39,688 nucleotides of DNA, from IMG/VR virus record IMGVR_UViG_3300024517_000041, positions 1 through 39,688 of that record. The stretch is one strand, 5' to 3'. Under the pieces are notes generated by a model, which was not told the DNA's origin, ran no database searches, and was given only the letters and a program-made list of their open reading frames with translations. Position numbers and translations under genes: made by a program. Positions 2,156-17,372 of this stretch are shown here, in pieces. Source of the stretch: a virus. The stretch's first letter is position 1. Each line of letters opens with the position of its first letter.

Positions 2156-2246
2156 CCTATAGAGCATATAGGACATAAGTTCTTATCAGAATAGGTACCC
2201 AATGATAGGTACCTAACTGTAGGTACCTACCTATAGGTACCTATAG
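2156..2246. repeat. Cluster of TAGGTACCTA palindromes (operator or origin-like array)
   Basis: The array contains CCTATA-N5-TATAGG (2156-2172), an incomplete TAGGTACC (2192-2199), and full TAGGTACCTA palindromes at 2206-2215, 2220-2229 and 2234-2243. The last extends to a perfect 16-base palindrome CTATAGGTACCTATAG (2231-2246). They lie directly upstream of the primase-helicase Shine-Dalgarno sequence. The same palindrome recurs at 14378-14397 and 14487-14500. A repressor operator is the simplest reading; replication iterons are an alternative because the array abuts a primase-helicase gene. Confidence 0.7.
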
Positions 2247-2264: not shown

Positions 2265-4007
2265 GTGAGATCTATTGAAGCCATGGCGAAGTCAGAATTT
2301 GCAGGGGTCGGAACCAAGAATTTTATCTGTCCGGAATGTTCTGAGGATAGAAGTTTCAAGAATCAGGGGAAGAAATGTCTGACCATCACCTACAAGGATA
2401 AGGAGGCTGTCTGGTTTTGCCATAATTGCGAGACCAAAGGACATGTTTGGATGGATGAGAAGACAGAACTTCGCGTAGTCCCTCAGTTTTTCAATGCGAG
2501 TCCGGATTCTCTGAAGGTCATCGGCAAGGATCGTGGGATCAATTTCGATGAGATCGATGAGGAAACGAAGAGCCTGCTCTATGTGTCTGAGGATGTTTAC
2601 TTCAGCCAGATTGGCCAGAAGACTAGGGCCGTAGGCTTCGGGTATCCCCATGACGATGGGATCAAATGGAGAGGGCTGGAGGAGAAATGCTACACCCAGT
2701 CTGGATCATGCCGTGGTCTTTTCCCACCATTCAAATTCGATAGAGATGAGATCGTGTTCATTGTCGAAGGAGAATACGATGCCCTTGCCATGAGGTCTTG
2801 TGGCTATTTGGCATTTTCTGTTCCGCTCGGAGCGAATCTCTCAGCTAAGGGAGAAGCCCCACACTATTTGAAGCCGGTGATCAATGCCCTCTTGAGAGAT
2901 GAGATCGATGTGGTAGTGGCTGTTGATTCGGATGAGAAGGGCCAGAGATTCAGGGATGCATTGCTCAGTTTCCTGGGTCGTAATCGAATCGGGGTTATCG
3001 ATTGGTCTCAGTATGGTGTGAAGGATGCTAACGAGTGTCTTCAGGTCCATGGTCCGGAAGGCTTGAGGAAAGCGTTCTCTGAAATCCAGGGGATTCTCTA
3101 TGAGGGAATCGTTCGGGCTAGGAGTGTGGCAACCCGCATCGATGACATCAGGACAGGAGGTTTCAAAGGAGGAGCCAAGATCGGGATTCCCAGTGTGGAC
3201 AGGTTGATCACAGTTTGTAGTGATCAGGTCACAGTGGTGACGGGGATCCCTGGCTCTGGCAAATCTGAGTTGATTGATTTCTTTATCGTGTCTCTGGCTA
3301 TCAACGAGGGATGGAAGTTCGGGATCTTCTCAGCAGAGAACCCAATTGATATCCATTGCGGGAAGCTGATCGAAAAGAAAGCTGGCCTACCTCTCTTCGA
3401 AGGTAACAATCGAATGAACGAGGAACAGTTGCGAGAAACTTCGGCATGGGTTGATGAGCATTTCTTTTTCCTGGACCCGGCATCGTCCAACAAACTGGAT
3501 TCAATTCTGGATAGGGCTGCGATACTCGTTGAGCATGAAAAGATTAACGGCATCGTGATCGATCCATTTAACTACACCGATGTACCTCTCGAAACCGATG
3601 CAATAAATTCGATGCTTACAAAACTCCATGCCTTCGCGGGCAAGCATCATATCCATGTCTGGATCGTCGCTCATCCTGCCAAGCTTTACCGAGGTGAAGG
3701 TGGGAAGATGCCTGTCCCTGGCGGAATGGATATCAGTGGGTCAGCAGCTTGGTTCGCGAAGTCTGACTTCGGAATTACTGTGTCGAGGGACGGTGATGGG
3801 ACCATCATGAATTGCTGGAAGTGTCGATTCAAATGGCTCGGCGACACAGGTACAGCGCATCTTCGTTACCACAGTGACTGCGGACGCTACTCCGAGGGAG
3901 TCTCAACTGAAGAGATAGCAAAGTCTCTGGGAGAGATATTCAAAGACGAACCGGTAGCTGCTGATGAGTCGAAGGAAGATTTCCAAGATGAACTCTGGGT
4001 CGTCTGA
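2265..4007 (+). CDS. Primase-helicase (T7 gp4 / Twinkle-like)
   Basis: A 580-residue replicative primase-helicase. The N-terminal zinc finger has C22-x2-C25 and C52-x2-C55. The TOPRIM domain shows E168 in FIVEGEYDA and D221-x-D223 in VAVDSDEKG. The C-terminal RecA/DnaB-type helicase has Walker A GIPGSGKS (327-334), the glutamate motif GIFSAENP (E358) and Walker B GIVIDPFN (D433). All key residues are present, so both activities are expected: unwinding at the phage fork and primer synthesis. The GTG start at 2265 is chosen because GAAGGAG sits about 6 bases before it; an ATG at 2283 lacks such a site. It lies just after the palindrome array that probably controls it. No phage DNA polymerase is seen in the window. 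Confidence 0.93.
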   Translation: MRSIEAMAKSEFAGVGTKNFICPECSEDRSFKNQGKKCLTITYKDKEAVWFCHNCETKGHVWMDEKTELRVVPQFFNASPDSLKVIGKDRGINFDEIDEETKSLLYVSEDVYFSQIGQKTRAVGFGYPHDDGIKWRGLEEKCYTQSGSCRGLFPPFKFDRDEIVFIVEGEYDALAMRSCGYLAFSVPLGANLSAKGEAPHYLKPVINALLRDEIDVVVAVDSDEKGQRFRDALLSFLGRNRIGVIDWSQYGVKDANECLQVHGPEGLRKAFSEIQGILYEGIVRARSVATRIDDIRTGGFKGGAKIGIPSVDRLITVCSDQVTVVTGIPGSGKSELIDFFIVSLAINEGWKFGIFSAENPIDIHCGKLIEKKAGLPLFEGNNRMNEEQLRETSAWVDEHFFFLDPASSNKLDSILDRAAILVEHEKINGIVIDPFNYTDVPLETDAINSMLTKLHAFAGKHHIHVWIVAHPAKLYRGEGGKMPVPGGMDISGSAAWFAKSDFGITVSRDGDGTIMNCWKCRFKWLGDTGTAHLRYHSDCGRYSEGVSTEEIAKSLGEIFKDEPVAADESKEDFQDELWVV

Positions 4008-4476
4008 TAATTCTCGGGGGATAGAATCCGGGACCGATGAACTGAAGAAAAAATTCAAGGTCGAGGTGGAGAAGCTAGACAGTCGGGGAATATTCCGGAG
4101 GTCCAGAGTTGTCAACCAGACCCGAATCGATTCGTTGTTTCTTGACAGAGCAATAGACATTGCACAGTTCTCAGCAGCAGAACTTTACCTGGAACTCTTA
4201 TGGAAGGCCGGTATCTTTTTGCGGAGCCCATCGATGGAGAGATCTTTCGAGGTGACAGGCAAGGAAGTTGAGAAGTCCATCTCGTCTAGGATCTTGGCGA
4301 TATCAGGAGCGAGGAGCAAGCTAAGGAAACTGGATCCGAAGGTGGCCTTGGCTGTTGATCTCTGCATTGGTTCGAATGCTCCAGTGGATATAGGGCTACT
4401 GCGTGAAGGGCTCGATGTTCTTGTGGATCACTTCGGAATTTCACGTATGGCTGACCCCAGAAAGAAAACCCGCTAG
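3988..4476 (+). CDS. Unknown protein downstream of primase-helicase
   Basis: A 162-residue protein overlapping the end of the primase-helicase gene by 20 bases. ATG 3988 is preferred because GAAGGAAG lies about 9 bases upstream; ATG 3964 would add 8 residues. The N terminus is polar and charged, the middle (FLDRAIDIAQFSAAELYLELLWKAGIF) is likely helical, and the C terminus is basic (RKKTR). No known domain was recognised. Position suggests a replication or packaging accessory role, but this is only inference. The leftward-block terminator overlaps its last codons. Confidence 0.65.
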   Translation: MNSGSSDNSRGIESGTDELKKKFKVEVEKLDSRGIFRRSRVVNQTRIDSLFLDRAIDIAQFSAAELYLELLWKAGIFLRSPSMERSFEVTGKEVEKSISSRILAISGARSKLRKLDPKVALAVDLCIGSNAPVDIGLLREGLDVLVDHFGISRMADPRKKTR

Positions 4477-4613: not shown

Positions 4614-4778
4614 CTACAGAGCTTTCTTCAGGATGATTCTCAACTCAGCAGCAGCCGCTCTGTCATTTTCCTTAGAAAGTTTCTTGATTTTGTTCCAGTG
4701 CTTCTTCGGGATCTTGACCTTGATCTCTATCATCTCATCCCTGAAGAACGGCTCTCGCTTTCCTGATTGTGCAGCCAT
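4614..4778 (-). CDS. Small ribbon-helix-helix (Arc-like) DNA-binding protein
   Basis: A 54-residue product whose core reads IEIKVKIPKKHWNKIKKLS, then ENDRAAAAELRIILKKAL. This is the Arc/MetJ pattern: a short beta strand of alternating residues followed by two helices. Such proteins bind palindromic operators as dimers and often repress phage genes. The start ATG overlaps the previous gene's stop by one base (TAATG), so it is translationally coupled. The ten residues before the strand are charged and probably flexible. Candidate targets in this window are the TAGGTACCTA palindromes and the GGGG-N8-CCCC repeats in the leftward promoters, but no direct link is visible. Confidence 0.68.
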   Translation of the reverse strand: MAAQSGKREPFFRDEMIEIKVKIPKKHWNKIKKLSKENDRAAAAELRIILKKAL

Positions 4779-6875: not shown

Positions 6876-8162
6876 CTATGTTCTTACCAAGATTGTTCTT
6901 CCGTAGGTCGGGGTTCTTCCCTGGCCTTTAACATCAACCCAGAGAACTGGGATACCCGGATCTTCGGGGAATGACATTTCCATGTCGGTGATGACGATGA
7001 TGCCAGTCACATCGGGTGCGTTCTCCGCAATCCAATCGAACGCGGGCCTGACATTGGTTCCTCCATAGCCCCGTCGAGTGGCATCCTCTTCTGTGAACTC
7101 AACGCCATGTTCGAACTCTGCGACCTCTCCCAGCAGATGGCTGTCAAAGTGCATCACATAAGTTTTACTAGGCTCATAGAAGTTGATTAGAGAGCCTGTC
7201 TCGTTGAGTGCCAAGTTGACTCGATCCTCATCCATGGAGTAGGATTCGTCGAGTGCTACTGCCAGAGAGCCGATCCCTTCCTGCTCGGTGCTTGGCATGA
7301 AGATTCCAGCGGATGCGAATCTCCGATTCGGTCGCTTCCAGTTCTGGATCGAGGATTCCCCAAGATTCGAGGAGACGAAATCTGTCAACTCTTCTCGCCA
7401 GTCTATCTTCCCTGCCTGGATGGTTTTCCGGATCGTCTCTTCGAGTTCGACCGAGATCTTTCCGACTGCTTTTGCAGCAGCCATGTCGATCTCGAATTCA
7501 ATACTTTCGCTGGTTTCCGCTTCTTCCAATTCAGTTTTAGAAAGAGTCGCTCCCGCAGGGCCAGGGAGTGGTTCGAAATCTCCCCACTCAGAGACCGGCG
7601 GAAGGGAGTATCCCTCCATGTCTATAACTTGATCGTCCTGCATTTCGGTCGGCTCGCTGGGGCTTTGCTCTCCCTCTCCCTCTCCCTCTCCCTCTCCCTC
7701 TCCCTTTTCAGGGCTCTGCCCTCTGGCTTTCTCAGCCATCCGGATTCGATAGATATCTTCGAAGGCCATCCCCTCAAATCTTGGGGAGTAAATTGCACCG
7801 GGAAGGAGATCGAACCCGGCTTTCGCCAGCATGTGATTGACCTCTTCATCAGCAGACTCGGCTTCCACCTCGGGATCCAACCCAGGTCCGATTCTAATGT
7901 GGTGCCTGAGCAACGGGTGACCTAGCTCATGGGCTTGGAGGAAATGTGCTTCCGATAGGCTCAGCGCTGCCAAAAACTGAGGGTTGTACCGAATCACCAA
8001 TCCATTGGTGCAAGCGGTCTCGATGGTCGGATCGAGGTGCTGCTCCATTCGGAGGACATTTCTCCCGAAGAGGGGGTGATCCAACATCATCCATCGATTC
8101 ATGACTTCGAGCTTGTCCTTCAGATCCTTGACCGTGATGTTTTCTGTGGACAGGAGAGTCAT
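6876..8162 (-). CDS. Putative metallopeptidase plus VWA-domain protein (DUF2201/CobT-like)
   Basis: A 428-residue two-domain protein. The N-terminal half has a zincin motif H78-E79-L-G-H82 (QAHELGHPLL) followed by an acidic ADEEVNHML segment, as in the putative metallopeptidase domain found beside DUF2201. A linker with a Gly-Glu repeat (about residues 154-165) leads to a VWA-like domain with a full MIDAS: D305-x-S307-x-S309 in ALDESYSMD, T369 in YGGTN and D393 in VITDMEM. Proteins of this type act as metal-dependent adaptor partners of MoxR/CobS-like AAA+ ATPases. Here it is in the same block as such an ATPase, with one unknown gene between. TAATG overlap couples it to that gene. Peptidase activity is inferred, not shown. 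Confidence 0.85.
   Translation of the reverse strand: MTLLSTENITVKDLKDKLEVMNRWMMLDHPLFGRNVLRMEQHLDPTIETACTNGLVIRYNPQFLAALSLSEAHFLQAHELGHPLLRHHIRIGPGLDPEVEAESADEEVNHMLAKAGFDLLPGAIYSPRFEGMAFEDIYRIRMAEKARGQSPEKGEGEGEGEGEGEQSPSEPTEMQDDQVIDMEGYSLPPVSEWGDFEPLPGPAGATLSKTELEEAETSESIEFEIDMAAAKAVGKISVELEETIRKTIQAGKIDWREELTDFVSSNLGESSIQNWKRPNRRFASAGIFMPSTEQEGIGSLAVALDESYSMDEDRVNLALNETGSLINFYEPSKTYVMHFDSHLLGEVAEFEHGVEFTEEDATRRGYGGTNVRPAFDWIAENAPDVTGIIVITDMEMSFPEDPGIPVLWVDVKGQGRTPTYGRTILVRT
7668..7703. repeat. Hexanucleotide repeat CTCTCC x6 inside the VWA gene
   Basis: Six exact copies of CTCTCC, encoding alternating Gly-Glu on the minus strand. The unit is a multiple of three, so copy number change alters linker length without breaking the frame. 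Confidence 0.9.
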
Positions 8163-11559: not shown

Positions 11560-12210
11560 TCAACTCCAAGGAAGCCCGTATTTCGAAGCGCAGACCGGGC
11601 CATATCCCAACTCGATGGATCTTCGGTCATCTCCCTCACCCACTGGGGTCCGACAGAAAACGCATCGTCCGCTCGACTTCCCTTCGCTTGTCGCGAAGGC
11701 GACCGGGTCGGCATTGAACGCCTCCACCGCTGCGATCACCTCCGGAGTGGCGATTCTGGTGGGCGAGAATTTCCCATCGAGATCGATGCGCCCGTACCAT
11801 TTGTTGTCGGGGTAGTGGCCGAGGTCGGTGACGTTGATGCTTCCGGGGATCTTTGCCCGCTCCCCTGCCCTCTGGAATTTCAGACTGGCAGTGGTGACCT
11901 TCGGAAACTTGACCTTCTCGGCAGCCCGGGTGAAGAATGCCAGAATCTCAGCGGCATCGACCACCATAGCGACCGGCTCCGAGAATTCCCTCGTATCCCC
12001 GAAGCTATCGGCCAGATTCTGAGGGGTAGAGTCTTCAAGTTTCTTGTTGAGCATCCACTCGGGGACGTAGGCATTCTCCCCCACGTACTGGATCATCGAC
12101 TTCGGGAAAAAACAGCGGGTCGGCTTGCGCTTGCCGCTGACCTTTACGTCCACGCCGACGGCCTTCTCGCTCTCCCAGTCATAACTGAGAACTTCGATCA
12201 TCATCGCCAT
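11560..12210 (-). CDS. Protein with C-terminal DUF6011-like zinc motif
   Basis: A 216-residue protein. The C terminus SGRCVFCRTPVGEGDDRRSIELGYGPVCASKYGL matches DUF6011, a short domain with C-x2-C...GxGPxC that probably binds zinc. The N-terminal two thirds (about residues 1-165) have no recognised fold; they contain alternating strands and a basic segment. ATG 12210 overlaps the previous stop by one base (TAATG), with GAGGAGGGC upstream. DUF6011 proteins are frequent in phage and mobile-element accessory regions; the function is unknown. Confidence 0.75.
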   Translation of the reverse strand: MAMMIEVLSYDWESEKAVGVDVKVSGKRKPTRCFFPKSMIQYVGENAYVPEWMLNKKLEDSTPQNLADSFGDTREFSEPVAMVVDAAEILAFFTRAAEKVKFPKVTTASLKFQRAGERAKIPGSINVTDLGHYPDNKWYGRIDLDGKFSPTRIATPEVIAAVEAFNADPVAFATSEGKSSGRCVFCRTPVGEGDDRRSIELGYGPVCASKYGLPWS

Positions 12211-13641: not shown

Positions 13642-14112
13642 ATGCCAGAGAAGCCTAAGCCTACGAAAAAACAAAGGGATTTCGCCTCGAAGGTAATCGA
13701 AGGAGCTTCGCAGGCCGACGCCTACCGGGAGGCCTACGACGCCGAAGGCTCGAAGCCCACCACAATTAGAAGGGAAGCGCACCGGGTGGCGTCGAACCCC
13801 ACTGTCGCCACAATGGTAACCGAGGGAATCGAACGTGAGGGGAGGCTAGCGGCCCGTGACCTGGGGAACCGAAGACGCTGGATTCTCGGCCGATTAGTCG
13901 AAGAAGCCGAAGGAGCCGAGTCAGACTCCGCCCGGGTTAGGGCACTCGAATTGCTAGCGAAGCAATCCGGACTATTCGAGAATGAAGCGGATAGAGCCGA
14001 GAAGAGAGCTAGCGCGAGTGAGGATGCGCTCACCGCTGAACTAGAGGCCCGTCTAGCTATCCTTCTGCCTGGGGTGGGAGCCTTGGATATCGAGCCAGAA
14101 CCGGAGGAATAG
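13642..14112 (+). CDS. terS: Terminase small subunit (putative)
   Basis: A 156-residue protein. The N-terminal KPTKKQRDFASKVIEGASQADAYREAYDAEG, then IRREAHRVASNPTVATMV, is the helix-turn-helix pattern of phage small terminases (LTPKQxxF...G...AYRxAY...A..LLxxPxV). The rest is a long helical region with an acidic C terminus (DIEPEPEE). Small terminases bind the packaging site and hand DNA to the large subunit. It is separated from the large-subunit gene by the lysozyme and the GNAT-like gene, which is uncommon. The Shine-Dalgarno sequence is GAAGGGA, about 12 bases before the ATG. Codon and base composition is more GC-rich than the structural genes downstream. Confidence 0.82.
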   Translation: MPEKPKPTKKQRDFASKVIEGASQADAYREAYDAEGSKPTTIRREAHRVASNPTVATMVTEGIEREGRLAARDLGNRRRWILGRLVEEAEGAESDSARVRALELLAKQSGLFENEADRAEKRASASEDALTAELEARLAILLPGVGALDIEPEPEE

Positions 14113-14236
14113 AAGGCCCCCCCACCCCCCTGTGAGCGATGGCCTGCGTCGCGCTGCACTTTACACTGTGATCTCCTCAAACTATCACACCCTTTTCGTA
14201 CCTATTAAACCCCCCCAGGGATATCTATTATCCAGA

Positions 14237-14252
14237 TGTTCCACATGGAACA
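14237..14252. promoter_or_regulatory. parS-like palindrome TGTTCCACATGGAACA
   Basis: Seven-base arms TGTTCCA and TGGAACA flank CA. The bacterial chromosomal parS consensus is TGTTTCACGTGAAACA, with TGTTCCACGTGGAACA among known variants, so this differs by one base from such a variant. Functional binding by host ParB is inferred, not shown. Confidence 0.5.
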
Positions 14253-14279
14253 CCCCCCTATATTTTATGAGAAATTACA

Positions 14280-14301
14280 TCTACAAATTTTCTACAAATT
14301 T
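14280..14301 (+). repeat. Tandem duplication of TCTACAAATTT
   Basis: Two exact adjacent copies (14280-14290 and 14291-14301) of TCTACAAATTT in AT-rich non-coding DNA. It may be part of an origin or a protein-binding site. Confidence 0.9.
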
Positions 14302-14359
14302 TTTGGCAACCTAACCCTTGGCTTTTATAAGTATTTTCCATATGCGGAAATTTAGTTAC

Positions 14360-14397
14360 TTGACAGCCATCTAAATCCCCTATAGGTACCTATAGGG
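14360..14397 (+). promoter_or_regulatory. Rightward promoter-like TTGACA with 20-base palindromic operator
   Basis: TTGACA (14360-14365), 15 bases, TATAGG (14381-14386). The spacing is short. A perfect 20-base palindrome CCCTATAGGTACCTATAGGG (14378-14397) covers the -10. The palindrome extends the TAGGTACCTA motif at 2156-2246, so one regulator may control both. Confidence 0.6.
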
Positions 14398-14435
14398 ATA
14401 TGCGCTTATGTCTTATAAGAATTCTATAAGCATCT

Positions 14436-14460
14436 ACCGCCTCCCTTTGGGGTCGGCGGT
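14436..14460 (+). terminator. Hairpin ACCGCC...GGCGGT, terminator-like
   Basis: ACCGCC (14436-14441) and CCC pair with GGG and GGCGGT (14455-14460), followed by TTTATAT. The T run is weak. It lies between the palindromic promoter and the lysozyme, so it could attenuate that transcript. Confidence 0.5.
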
Positions 14461-14472
14461 TTATATAGGCAG

Positions 14473-14500
14473 TAGGTAGCTATAGTTATAGGTACCTATA
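14473..14500. promoter_or_regulatory. TAGGTACCTA operator upstream of lysozyme
   Basis: TATAGGTACCTATA (14487-14500) is a perfect 14-base palindrome; TAGGTAGCTA (14473-14482) is a variant with one change. They end just upstream of the lysozyme Shine-Dalgarno sequence AGGGGA. Confidence 0.65.
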
Positions 14501-14509
14501 GGGGAACTA

Positions 14510-15100
14510 ATGGCTGTCGAGAAGAAGAAAGATGAGAACGACCTTATTGCGATGAGAGAGATCCGTAATCATGAGGGTGGTACATGGGTTGCCTTTACTG
14601 ATGATGGCCAATGGGATGTTACCTCCAGATCCTATGATCCTCGTGGAGGTACTCATCTCATGAAATATCCAGACACTAGAGGCTTTATGACTGTCGGATA
14701 TGGTCATCGTGTTCTTCCTGGTGAGGAATTTCCAGATCGCATGACGCCTGATGAGGCCGAGGAGCTTTTCCAGAAGGACTACTGGAAACACAAGGAGAAG
14801 GCATCCAAAACCCCTGGTTGGGACAAGGCATCTCCTCGTCAAAGACGAGCCATGATCAACCTCACATTCAACATGGGGGGTGATTGGCACAAGAAATGGC
14901 CCGCATTTACAGAGGCTGCAAATAAGGGTGATTTCGAAAAAGCTGCCGCAGAACTGGTAGATAGCGATTGGTACGATCAGGTTAAAACCAGGGCAGATGA
15001 CGTAGTGAGTCTCATGCGGCCAGAGGAAACCGAAGAACTGGCTATAGGATATCTAGGTGGCGGGATAATCCGAGATAACTACGGAAGAAAGCTGATATAG
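14510..15100 (+). CDS. Endolysin, T4-type lysozyme (GH24)
   Basis: A 196-residue glycoside hydrolase 24 lysozyme, which cleaves the N-acetylmuramic acid to N-acetylglucosamine bond of peptidoglycan. The catalytic set is visible: E22 in IRNHEGG, then D55 and T61 in YPDTRGFMTVGYGH, with the same six-residue D-to-T spacing as T4 lysozyme D20/T26. About 25 additional residues separate E22 from D55 compared with T4. The C-terminal lobe motif INLTFNMG is present. No signal peptide or anchor is seen, so export would need a holin. AGGGGA precedes the ATG. Its location between small and large terminase genes is unusual. Confidence 0.9.
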   Translation: MAVEKKKDENDLIAMREIRNHEGGTWVAFTDDGQWDVTSRSYDPRGGTHLMKYPDTRGFMTVGYGHRVLPGEEFPDRMTPDEAEELFQKDYWKHKEKASKTPGWDKASPRQRRAMINLTFNMGGDWHKKWPAFTEAANKGDFEKAAAELVDSDWYDQVKTRADDVVSLMRPEETEELAIGYLGGGIIRDNYGRKLI

Positions 15101-15124
15101 CTTCCGGATATATCCAGAACAATC

Positions 15125-15161
15125 AAAAGCCCCTAGACCTCACTGGATCTAGGGACTTTTT
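15125..15161. terminator. Bidirectional terminator after lysozyme
   Basis: CCCTAGA (15131-15137) pairs with TCTAGGG (15148-15154), extended by AAAAG on the left and CTTTTT on the right. The T run follows on the plus strand and CTTTTG on the minus strand, so it can end both the lysozyme transcript and the converging GNAT transcript. Confidence 0.8.
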
Positions 15162-15229
15162 CATGCCCTGTGAGGAGGGGGTCTTCTAGAATGACCTCCT
15201 CCCCAACTCGTTGGAATGGAAGGAGATTC

Positions 15230-15682
15230 CTATGCAGGAACCTCTTCCGGGGCGTCTTCGGGGAGTGGCATCACCGGAAGATCGATATCCTTTCGGACCT
15301 CGTACATAACCTTGCTGTACCCGAACTGAGAGGCGTACTGAACCAGTCTCTCTGAGTGCGTCACAAACTCAACAGCGTTGCACCCATTGTTAATAGCCAG
15401 AGTCTCTATGGCTTCCTGGGCCAATGTCGCACCCTCTTCTTTCGGGGACCAAGCAATCCAGATAAAGAGGATCTTGTCCTTACCACTCTGGGAGATCTTG
15501 GCAATGAAGAAGGATTCACCTGGGGGGACACCCTCTTCACAGAAGATTGCCGATTCCCCCTTTGAGCATGAACTGTAGATATCTTCAGGTCTCCAGTCCG
15601 TCCATGGCATCTTGGATCGAATATCTTCAATGGCTGGACGGATATCGTCCCATACGTCCTGTATGGAGACATTGGTCAACAT
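15230..15682 (-). CDS. GNAT-like acetyltransferase-fold protein, leftward
   Basis: A 150-residue protein with the GNAT-like layout seen in small phage proteins near packaging and virion genes: an N-terminal helical part (VWDDIRPAIEDIRSKMPWTDW), a strand pair (SAIFCEEGV, SFFIAKIS), ILFIWIAWSPKEEGATLAQEAIETLA as the putative acetyl-CoA-binding region, and YASQFGYSKVMYEVRKDI at the end. The usual RxxGxG/A loop is not clear, so catalysis is uncertain. It is transcribed against the surrounding rightward genes and converges with the lysozyme. The Shine-Dalgarno sequence GAAGGGA is close to ATG 15682. Confidence 0.65.
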   Translation of the reverse strand: MLTNVSIQDVWDDIRPAIEDIRSKMPWTDWRPEDIYSSCSKGESAIFCEEGVPPGESFFIAKISQSGKDKILFIWIAWSPKEEGATLAQEAIETLAINNGCNAVEFVTHSERLVQYASQFGYSKVMYEVRKDIDLPVMPLPEDAPEEVPA

Positions 15683-15741
15683 ATCTGTATTCCCTTCGTC
15701 TGTGGGCCATAAGGCCCGTTATGTTTTATAAAAAACTCCCC

Positions 15742-15771
15742 TTGACAAAAAAGTCAAGTACCCCCTATCAT
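15742..15771 (+). promoter_or_regulatory. Rightward promoter for packaging/head genes, with inverted repeat
   Basis: TTGACA (15742-15747), 18 bases, TATCAT (15766-15771). The inverted repeat TTGAC-AAAAAA-GTCAA (15742-15757) overlaps the -35, suggesting an operator. It is the only clear promoter before the large terminase. Confidence 0.65.
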
Positions 15772-15827
15772 GATGATGGGTTTTTACATCGAAGGCGCGG
15801 AGCGTCTCTCTAAGTATAGACCCTAAT

Positions 15828-15862
15828 GGCGCTCCTTGGTTTGATCAGCCGGGTTGAGCGCC
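15828..15862 (+). other. Hairpin in the leader of the large terminase gene
   Basis: GGCGCTC (15828-15834) pairs with GAGCGCC (15856-15862) around a 21-base loop, ending 20 bases before the TTG start. It may modulate translation of the terminase. Confidence 0.5.
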
Positions 15863-15881
15863 AAATCTTTGGGGGGAGAGA

Positions 15882-17372
15882 TTGGCAGCACCGAACATAT
15901 CGGGAATGTCAAACGAAGAGAAGCGGGATCTTCTGGACATCATGGATAGGATTGAGGAAATCCGACTCCACAAAGGTGCCAGAGATAGCTTCATCAACTT
16001 CGTAAAACTGGTCTGGCCTTCTTTTATAGAAGGCGCACACCACAAGATAATGGGTGAAGCCTTCGAAAAGGTCGTATCCGGCGAAATCAATCGCCTCATT
16101 ATCAATATGGCTCCTCGCCACACGAAGTCAGAGTTCGCGTCCTTCTTATTACCAGCATGGTTCTTAGGGAACTACCCGGATAAGAAGGTGATTCAGACAG
16201 CCCATACAGCAGAACTGGCAGTGGGCTTTGGACGTAAGGTTAGAAATCTATTCGAATCCGATGAATTCAGGAAGGTATTCCCAGGAGTTTCCCTGAGATC
16301 GGATTCAAAAGCTGCGGGTCGGTGGAATACAAACCATGGGGGGGAGTATTTCGCGATTGGGGTTGGAGGTGCTGTAACGGGGAAGGGTGCGGACATCCTC
16401 ATTATCGATGATCCGCACTCCGAACAGGAAGCACAATTGGGGGATGCGACCGTCTTCGACAGAGTATACGAATGGTATACCTCTGGTCCTCGTCAGCGCC
16501 TCCAACCGGGCGGAAAGATCATTCAAGTCGCCACTCGATGGTCTCAACGAGACCTGACCGGTCAACTGCTCAAAGCAGTGGCCGAAAGAGATGGCATGGA
16601 TGAATGGGAAGTCATTGAGTTCCCGGCCATCCTTCCTTCAGGAAATCCAGTTTGGCCAGAGTTCTGGTCTCTCGAAGAACTCACCAAGGTTAAGAACGAA
16701 TTACCAGCGGCTAAATGGTCCGCTCAGTACCAACAGGATCCAAGCGCAGATGAGTCAGCCATCATCAAAAGAGAATGGTGGCGTAAGTGGGAAGAAACAG
16801 AACCACCCCCCTGTGACTTCATTATCCAGTCATGGGATACGGCATTTCTGAAAACACAACGAGCAGATTACTCAGCCTGTACTACATGGGGGGTTTTCTA
16901 TTCAGATCAGACCCATGATGGGCAACTCAGGCCAAGCCTCATATTGCTCAATGCTTTTCAGGAACGGTTGGAGTTTCCAGATCTAAAAAGAAGAGCCTTC
17001 GAGGAATACCATAAATGGCAACCCGATGCGTGCATCGTTGAAGCCAAGGCTGCGGGAACTCCCCTGATCTTTGAAATGAGAGAAATAGGTATCCCGGTCT
17101 CTGAATATGTTCCCTCTAAAGGTAACGATAAAGTAGCCAGAGTAAACGCAGTTGCAGATCTGTTCTCATCGGGTGTGATCTGGGCTCCGAATAAAAGGTT
17201 TTCCGAAGAAGTGATCGAACAGTTCGCTGGTTTTCCAGGGGCAGCAGCCCATGATGATCTAGTGGACTCATCCACACAGGCAATCATTCGCTTTAGGCAG
17301 GGTGGTTTTATCCCAATCCATAGCGATGAGGCTAGAGATTATGTTCCTAAAATGGCGTATTCGCCTTATTAG
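15882..17372 (+). CDS. terL: Terminase large subunit
   Basis: A 496-residue packaging motor. The ATPase domain has Walker A-like MAPRHTKSE (76-84) and Walker B ILIIDDPH (172-179); the motif QVATRWSQRDLTG and a coupling region follow. The C-terminal RNase H-like nuclease has D319 in IIQSWDTAF, the acidic IVEAKAAGTPL region and the final AAHDDLVDSS motif. It cuts concatemeric DNA and pumps it into the prohead through the portal. TTG 15882 is chosen because GGGGGGAGAG lies directly upstream; ATG 15906 is an alternative 8 residues shorter. The type resembles TerL of marine podoviruses. Confidence 0.95.
   Translation: MAAPNISGMSNEEKRDLLDIMDRIEEIRLHKGARDSFINFVKLVWPSFIEGAHHKIMGEAFEKVVSGEINRLIINMAPRHTKSEFASFLLPAWFLGNYPDKKVIQTAHTAELAVGFGRKVRNLFESDEFRKVFPGVSLRSDSKAAGRWNTNHGGEYFAIGVGGAVTGKGADILIIDDPHSEQEAQLGDATVFDRVYEWYTSGPRQRLQPGGKIIQVATRWSQRDLTGQLLKAVAERDGMDEWEVIEFPAILPSGNPVWPEFWSLEELTKVKNELPAAKWSAQYQQDPSADESAIIKREWWRKWEETEPPPCDFIIQSWDTAFLKTQRADYSACTTWGVFYSDQTHDGQLRPSLILLNAFQERLEFPDLKRRAFEEYHKWQPDACIVEAKAAGTPLIFEMREIGIPVSEYVPSKGNDKVARVNAVADLFSSGVIWAPNKRFSEEVIEQFAGFPGAAAHDDLVDSSTQAIIRFRQGGFIPIHSDEARDYVPKMAYSPY

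Follow-up and report, generated by a model that had tools for sequence, protein, structure and literature searches.

GafA homologues of Rhodobacterales carry the DUF6456 annotation. The C-terminal part of GafA forms dimers; it binds the gafA promoter as well as that of the gene transfer agent (GTA), covering the -35 box, the -10 box and the start site (PMC9638019). Binding of promoter DNA by this domain leads to activation or antitermination of GTA late genes. The Caulobacter crescentus protein GafZ corresponds to this C-terminal part, requires a near-perfect palindrome (ZBE) between -35 and -10, and functions as an antiterminator with which RNA polymerase passes the terminator behind the first gene (PMC11150451).

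Here, we focus on a stretch of 39,688 bases (the window), a fragment of a phage genome that encodes an exonuclease, a primase-helicase, an HNH protein, a small terminase, a lysozyme, a large terminase, a portal and a capsid protein. In outline it resembles the GafZ system: it encodes a GafA-C type protein, its late promoter bears a palindrome, the first gene is followed by a terminator-like hairpin, and a long virion operon is the presumed object of control. In contrast to the single ZBE between -35 and -10, however, the window has arrays at two loci, and its late palindrome P1 overlaps the -10 region. GafZ furthermore acts with a partner, GafY, whereas no GafY-like partner was identified here, and the regulator candidate of the window is encoded in the replication operon, unlike GafZ of C. 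crescentus. GafA of the Rhodobacter capsulatus GTA is a dimeric regulator of its own and of the late (terS) promoter, as is proposed for the phage protein, whose C-terminal homology to GafA is seen at the profile level. Unlike GafA, the phage protein has 170 aa, no N-terminal DnaA-like part is recognised in it, and the promoter from which it is expressed serves the primase-helicase gene as well. DUF6456 regulators act at their own and at the late promoter; both corresponding leaders of the window share palindromes, at which the action of a reader is predicted. The function proposed here, in which the protein loads where late transcription starts and hairpins follow, is also reminiscent of phage Q-type antiterminators, whose binding elements are embedded in promoters, with no sequence relation claimed; the sites of the window differ from theirs in being palindromic and in lying at two operons.

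Palindromes in the primase and late leaders

The 10-mer TAGGTACCTA occurs exactly five times in the whole window (at 2206, 2220, 2234, 14383 and 14489), while 0.01 copies are expected in the shuffled window. An earlier note on this DNA had proposed this count and had placed the palindrome outside coding DNA, which agrees with our finding that all copies are intergenic. Two copies with one mismatch, at 2192 (TAGGTACCCA) and 14473 (TAGGTAGCTA), each fall within one of the two clusters. With two mismatches allowed, 21 matches compare with 10.2 +/- 3.1 expected, hence everything beyond the best seven copies is near background. A literature text match for the letters of the 10-mer gave chance matches in unrelated work only, as judged from titles.

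The array in the primase leader (2192-2243) consists of four palindromes in exact 14-bp steps, TAGGTACCCA at 2192-2201 and TAGGTACCTA at 2206-2215, 2220-2229 and 2234-2243. It ends 21 bp before the start codon of the DNA primase-helicase gene (2265-4007, plus strand), the first gene of the operon behind it. Three exact copies had been described here before and are joined by the near copy at 2192; what had been taken for partial copies, at 2114 and 2156, proved to be short half-sites without statistical support. In the late leader, site P1 (14378-14397) is a perfect 20-bp palindrome, CCCTATAGGTACCTATAGGG, and site P2 (14487-14500) a perfect 14-bp palindrome that adjoins the ribosome-binding site and start of the lysozyme (endolysin) gene (14510-15100, plus strand). 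Both had been reported at these lengths, and a third, degenerate copy with one mismatch (TAGGTAGCTA, 14473-14482) lies between them.

Twelve bases upstream of P1 we read a candidate -35 box, TTGACA (14360-14365, plus strand), whose -10 region falls inside P1. The spacing of TTGACA, 12 bases and P1 is the same in the window and in the relatives G001, L085 and L087, in which the palindrome core is changed, and in all four P1 begins within the spacer that follows TTGACA and extends over the -10 region. In other lineages, the late-site palindrome lies behind an extended -10 box. By reading and comparison with the leaders of relatives, an alternative late promoter can be placed at 14280-14331 (plus strand), where an A/T tract is followed by TTGGCA-N17-TATAAG; relatives likewise have A/T tracts upstream of their late sites. 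A second good promoter-like sequence precedes terL at 15742 and has no palindromes. Thus, P1 need not be the sole late promoter.

Two hairpins accompany the late leader. The stem-loop ACCGCC...GGCGGT between P1 and P2 (14436-14460, plus strand) has no clear U-run. A terminator-like hairpin (15125-15160) lies between the lysozyme gene and a minus-strand gene at 15230-15682; it was scored on the minus strand, and its plus-strand reading has two stem mismatches. Alternatively, the palindromes might work in the leader RNA, where they would pair with each other into a long hairpin and so conceal the ribosome-binding site. The late leader RNA of the window has a folding energy of -77.4 kcal/mol (z -7.6), pairing continues across the lysozyme start through a 9-base flank match, and many leaders have stem-loops between the copies. 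Any two palindrome copies will pair as a matter of course, however, and the segment between them reaches only z -1.2 to -2.9. Moreover, RNA pairing needs neither palindromic copies nor a match to an operon 12 kb away, and Rfam gave no match. Most of the z -7.6 fold comes from the palindromes themselves. Leader-RNA structure as the primary explanation is weak once these are discounted and was rejected, and we regard an RNA-level element as very improbable.

Further upstream, a C-rich stretch (CCCCCACCCCCCTGTG...) downstream of the small terminase gene is common to the window (14112-14310) and its relatives. In the relatives it is followed by an AGGARTCCYA box and a double A/T tract and then by the late promoter (late leaders compared: the window, G001, G005, G006, G007, L221, L224, L237 and L241). 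These elements are far more constant across lineages than the palindromes, and the C-rich part could be a packaging (cos/pac) site. Elsewhere in the window, a perfect CTCTCC hexamer repeat of 6.3 copies (7668-7705) lies inside the HNH-family gene (6876-8162).

Matched divergence of the two leaders among relatives

Among named phages, the terminase relatives include the pelagiphages HTVC027P and HTVC023P, at 50-53% identity, a hint but no proof of an alphaproteobacterial host. Cultured HTVC023P-type pelagiphages have the related terminase and virion module but different replication genes, and no repeated palindrome module was found in the stretches examined of HTVC027P and HTVC023P. A near-identical record, G002, runs 12.5 kb past the right end of the window.

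In G003 and G004 (terminase DNA 72-76% identical), 14-bp-spaced TAGGTACCTA stands at the corresponding position ahead of the terminase, and no lysozyme gene is present. A lysozyme-specific role of the late site is thus not supported, and its restriction to lysis control was rejected; the constant neighbour in relatives is the operon of the terminase large subunit (15882-17372, plus strand). In the window and G002, the lysozyme gene sits between the small and large terminase genes (13642-15882) as the first gene after the late sites; since it is absent there in G003, G004 and G001, it looks like an insertion behind these sites. The circular genome G005 (78-bp end repeat) has one site 22 bp before the primase start and three copies before the late operon. 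Its five best sites (four exact and a near copy at 7609) all lie at these two loci; the matches at 43883 and 55002 are isolated and weaker, with scores that do not exceed the lowest among these five.

The earlier note had taken absence of the palindrome from a relative of the same gene order as telling against one shared regulator. Such absence is found in G001, which has the gene order of the window and lacks TAGGTACCTA, but another palindrome occupies both G001 sites. CTATAG-NNNN-CTATAG palindromes stand at both loci with changed cores (AATT, GATT), together with TAGGATCCTA, and the outer arms are those of the window. This strengthens the reading of the sites as a regulon. Similarly, G007 has AGAACGTTCT at both loci, and other lineages carry AGGAATATTCCT, TTAGGAATATGCCTAA, TAGTAATATACTA, TAGTTTAATACTA, AAGTAGACTACTTAGTC and others in both leaders, with palindrome spacing that differs among lineages (about 14-18 bp).

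Within-genome sharing between primase and late leaders amounts to 186 ten-mers over 27 genomes, compared with a maximum of 103 in 20,000 permutations (p <= 5e-5). This set is an unselected test, in which the zero-sharing genomes L225, L229, L216 and L240 were kept despite truncated or coding late windows. In 11 genomes, 148 nine-mers are shared, a number reached in 0 of 50,000 permutations (maximum 121); these genomes were picked after the 27-genome result, so that the figure describes their lineages and is no independent test. They represent one genome per operator lineage where possible; the window and G005 share one lineage, and the result holds without G005. Matched divergence at two loci about 12 kb apart points to a trans-acting reader, and the calculation is silent on which reader this is. 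Judged from sequence, the palindromes are very probably specific sites of one trans-acting phage factor at two operons. The idea of a single regulator that couples replication to late timing is well supported by a lineage-specific palindrome common to both loci across many divergent genomes.

A trans-acting factor could also be a replication initiator. The palindromes would then be iterons of two origins, at which a phage initiator, possibly the protein of the open reading frame (ORF) starting at 3964, recruits the primase-helicase. It is common for initiators to bind iterons within the operon that encodes them, and the direct 14-bp array adjoining the primase gene, the A/T-rich tract adjoining the late sites and a GC-skew minimum near the late region in the window and G005 are consistent with this. 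The skew tracks gene direction, however, and its minimum coincides with neither site in G001 or G007; because of this tie to gene direction, GC skew cannot decide the origin question. Furthermore, the spacing of the putative iterons varies among lineages as described above, and the sites overlap promoter boxes and ribosome-binding sites. The late sites of relatives combine a varying period with an A/T tract, while the primase array of the window has its 14-bp period and no A/T tract. Two origins are an improbable reading of the sites.

The primase leaders of relatives have further features. In L194, L195 and L196, the stem-loop between the palindromes occurs as GAGTCCC/GGGACTC, as GAGCCCC/GGGGCTC and as an A/T version. 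Pairing is kept while the sequence changes, suggesting that the structure itself matters. A promoter-like sequence, TTGACA-N18-TATA, lies on the minus strand of the L184-L197 and G001 primase leaders and points away from the primase. In most of this clade it overlaps the start-proximal palindrome (e.g., L188 9810-10003), and its counterpart in G005 points toward the primase.

Candidate readers of the sites

Behind the primase gene, and co-transcribed with it, lies an ORF (3964-4476, plus strand) whose product we consider as the regulator. A profile built from its homologues finds 86 ORFs, and the gene is primase-adjacent in nearly all of about 80 relatives. As a single case, G008 has no homologue of this ORF and no shared palindromes, and it carries a ribbon-helix-helix (RHH) gene. 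Against a DUF6456 profile built from collected alphaproteobacterial DUF6456 proteins, the ORF 3964 family reaches an HHalign probability of 94.4% (E 9.3e-8, 136 columns), while reversed and column-shuffled controls reach at most 0.2%. With eight canonical bacterial DUF6456 members only, the value drops to 77.8%, and for the window's own group against the bacterial members it drops to 5.3%. Hence, the link to DUF6456 depends on the family taken as a whole and on divergent members of DUF6456. Only one family member matches DUF6456 (PF20057) in Pfam at 1.6e-5 and 23.2 bits, below the cut-off of 26.3, and the window's protein alone has no Pfam match. A fold search with its predicted structure (pLDDT 76) gave no match, a sequence search of the PDB gave nothing significant, and a PHROGs search gave weak matches only. 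Trees of the primase and of ORF 3964 gave no distinction between descent driven by the sites and ordinary descent. At the profile level, the ORF 3964 family is a remote relative of DUF6456, that is, of the GafA C-terminal domain and GafZ. From its sequence and its place in the operon, we lean towards its product as the reader of both palindrome loci.

The earlier note had instead put forward a small RHH-like protein (4614-4778, minus strand) as binding partner. As a repressor, this protein (in G005, the product of 3729-3917 or 11654-11914) would keep both the replication and the late promoter repressed up to the late phase of infection. RHH proteins of the Arc/MetJ type bind even palindromes, often in tandem arrays. 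Homologues of 4614-4778 lie convergent to the primase operon in the window, G001, L184, L194, L196, G008 and the L209 group, and G001 and L184, which share operators, have identical strand residues (E-V-R-M-K). Across lineages, however, the RHH gene of these phages does not track the sites, in which it differs from Arc/MetJ-type repressors. No homologue was found in G006, G007, L189, L191, L221, L224 and L241, all of which bear sites, although several of these records are partial. G008 has the RHH gene without shared palindromes, G005 has the operator of the window without an RHH protein of the window's type, and L194 and L196 have near-identical leaders and different strand residues. As a general partner of the sites, the protein is therefore disfavoured, and an RHH repressor is unlikely. 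A second RHH family (G005 3729, G001 27025) was rejected, as its strand residues differ between G001 and L184, which share operators. A Pfam Arc search of 12 records found nothing.

In the AT-rich group of L209, L217, L235, L238 and L243, we recognised by eye a LexA-like winged-helix reading frame (...SSKSTVHAMLKRLEDNGWVTMQ...) that ends just upstream of the late palindromes. Its product is a possible other reader in this group.

A putative late-gene switch encoded with the primase

With moderate confidence, and arguing from sequence comparison, we propose a two-site regulon read by a dimeric DNA-binding regulator of the phage, putatively the GafA-C/GafZ-like ORF 3964 protein. This stand-alone relative of the GafA C-terminal part and GafZ (DUF6456) would be produced from the primase operon. 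Its two targets would be the leader of this operon and that of the late operon, which comprises the terminase and virion genes and here also the lysozyme gene. Made along with the primase, the protein would feed back on its own operon. At the late promoter, whose -10 region or early transcribed DNA is overlapped by P1, it would load onto the RNA polymerase of the host; the examined parts of this phage group yielded no recognisable RNA polymerase gene. Loading would then lead to activation or antitermination of the late operon after replication begins.

By analogy with GafA and GafZ, we favour activation or antitermination over other signs of control. Some features count against the proposal. 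P1 coincides with the -10 box or lies behind it, whereas the GafZ element sits cleanly between -35 and -10, and each leader holds more than one copy, an arrangement compatible with a repressor as well; the palindrome-free promoter before terL and the promoter-like sequences that point away from the primase in several relatives likewise count against it. Beyond the window, it is a tentative idea that these phages carry the free-living form of a regulator that alphaproteobacterial GTAs have domesticated. A stand-alone DUF6456 protein encoded with the primase would switch on or antiterminate both operons through fast-diversifying palindromes, which would keep co-infecting relatives from cross-control. 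The proposed regulon would provide a concrete mechanism of late-gene timing for many uncultured phages of marine and fresh waters, and it would connect GafA and GafZ, GTA regulators that are still poorly understood, with a phage system at work. The natural series of matched site and protein variants in about ten lineages offers ready-made material for reading a DNA-recognition code of DUF6456.
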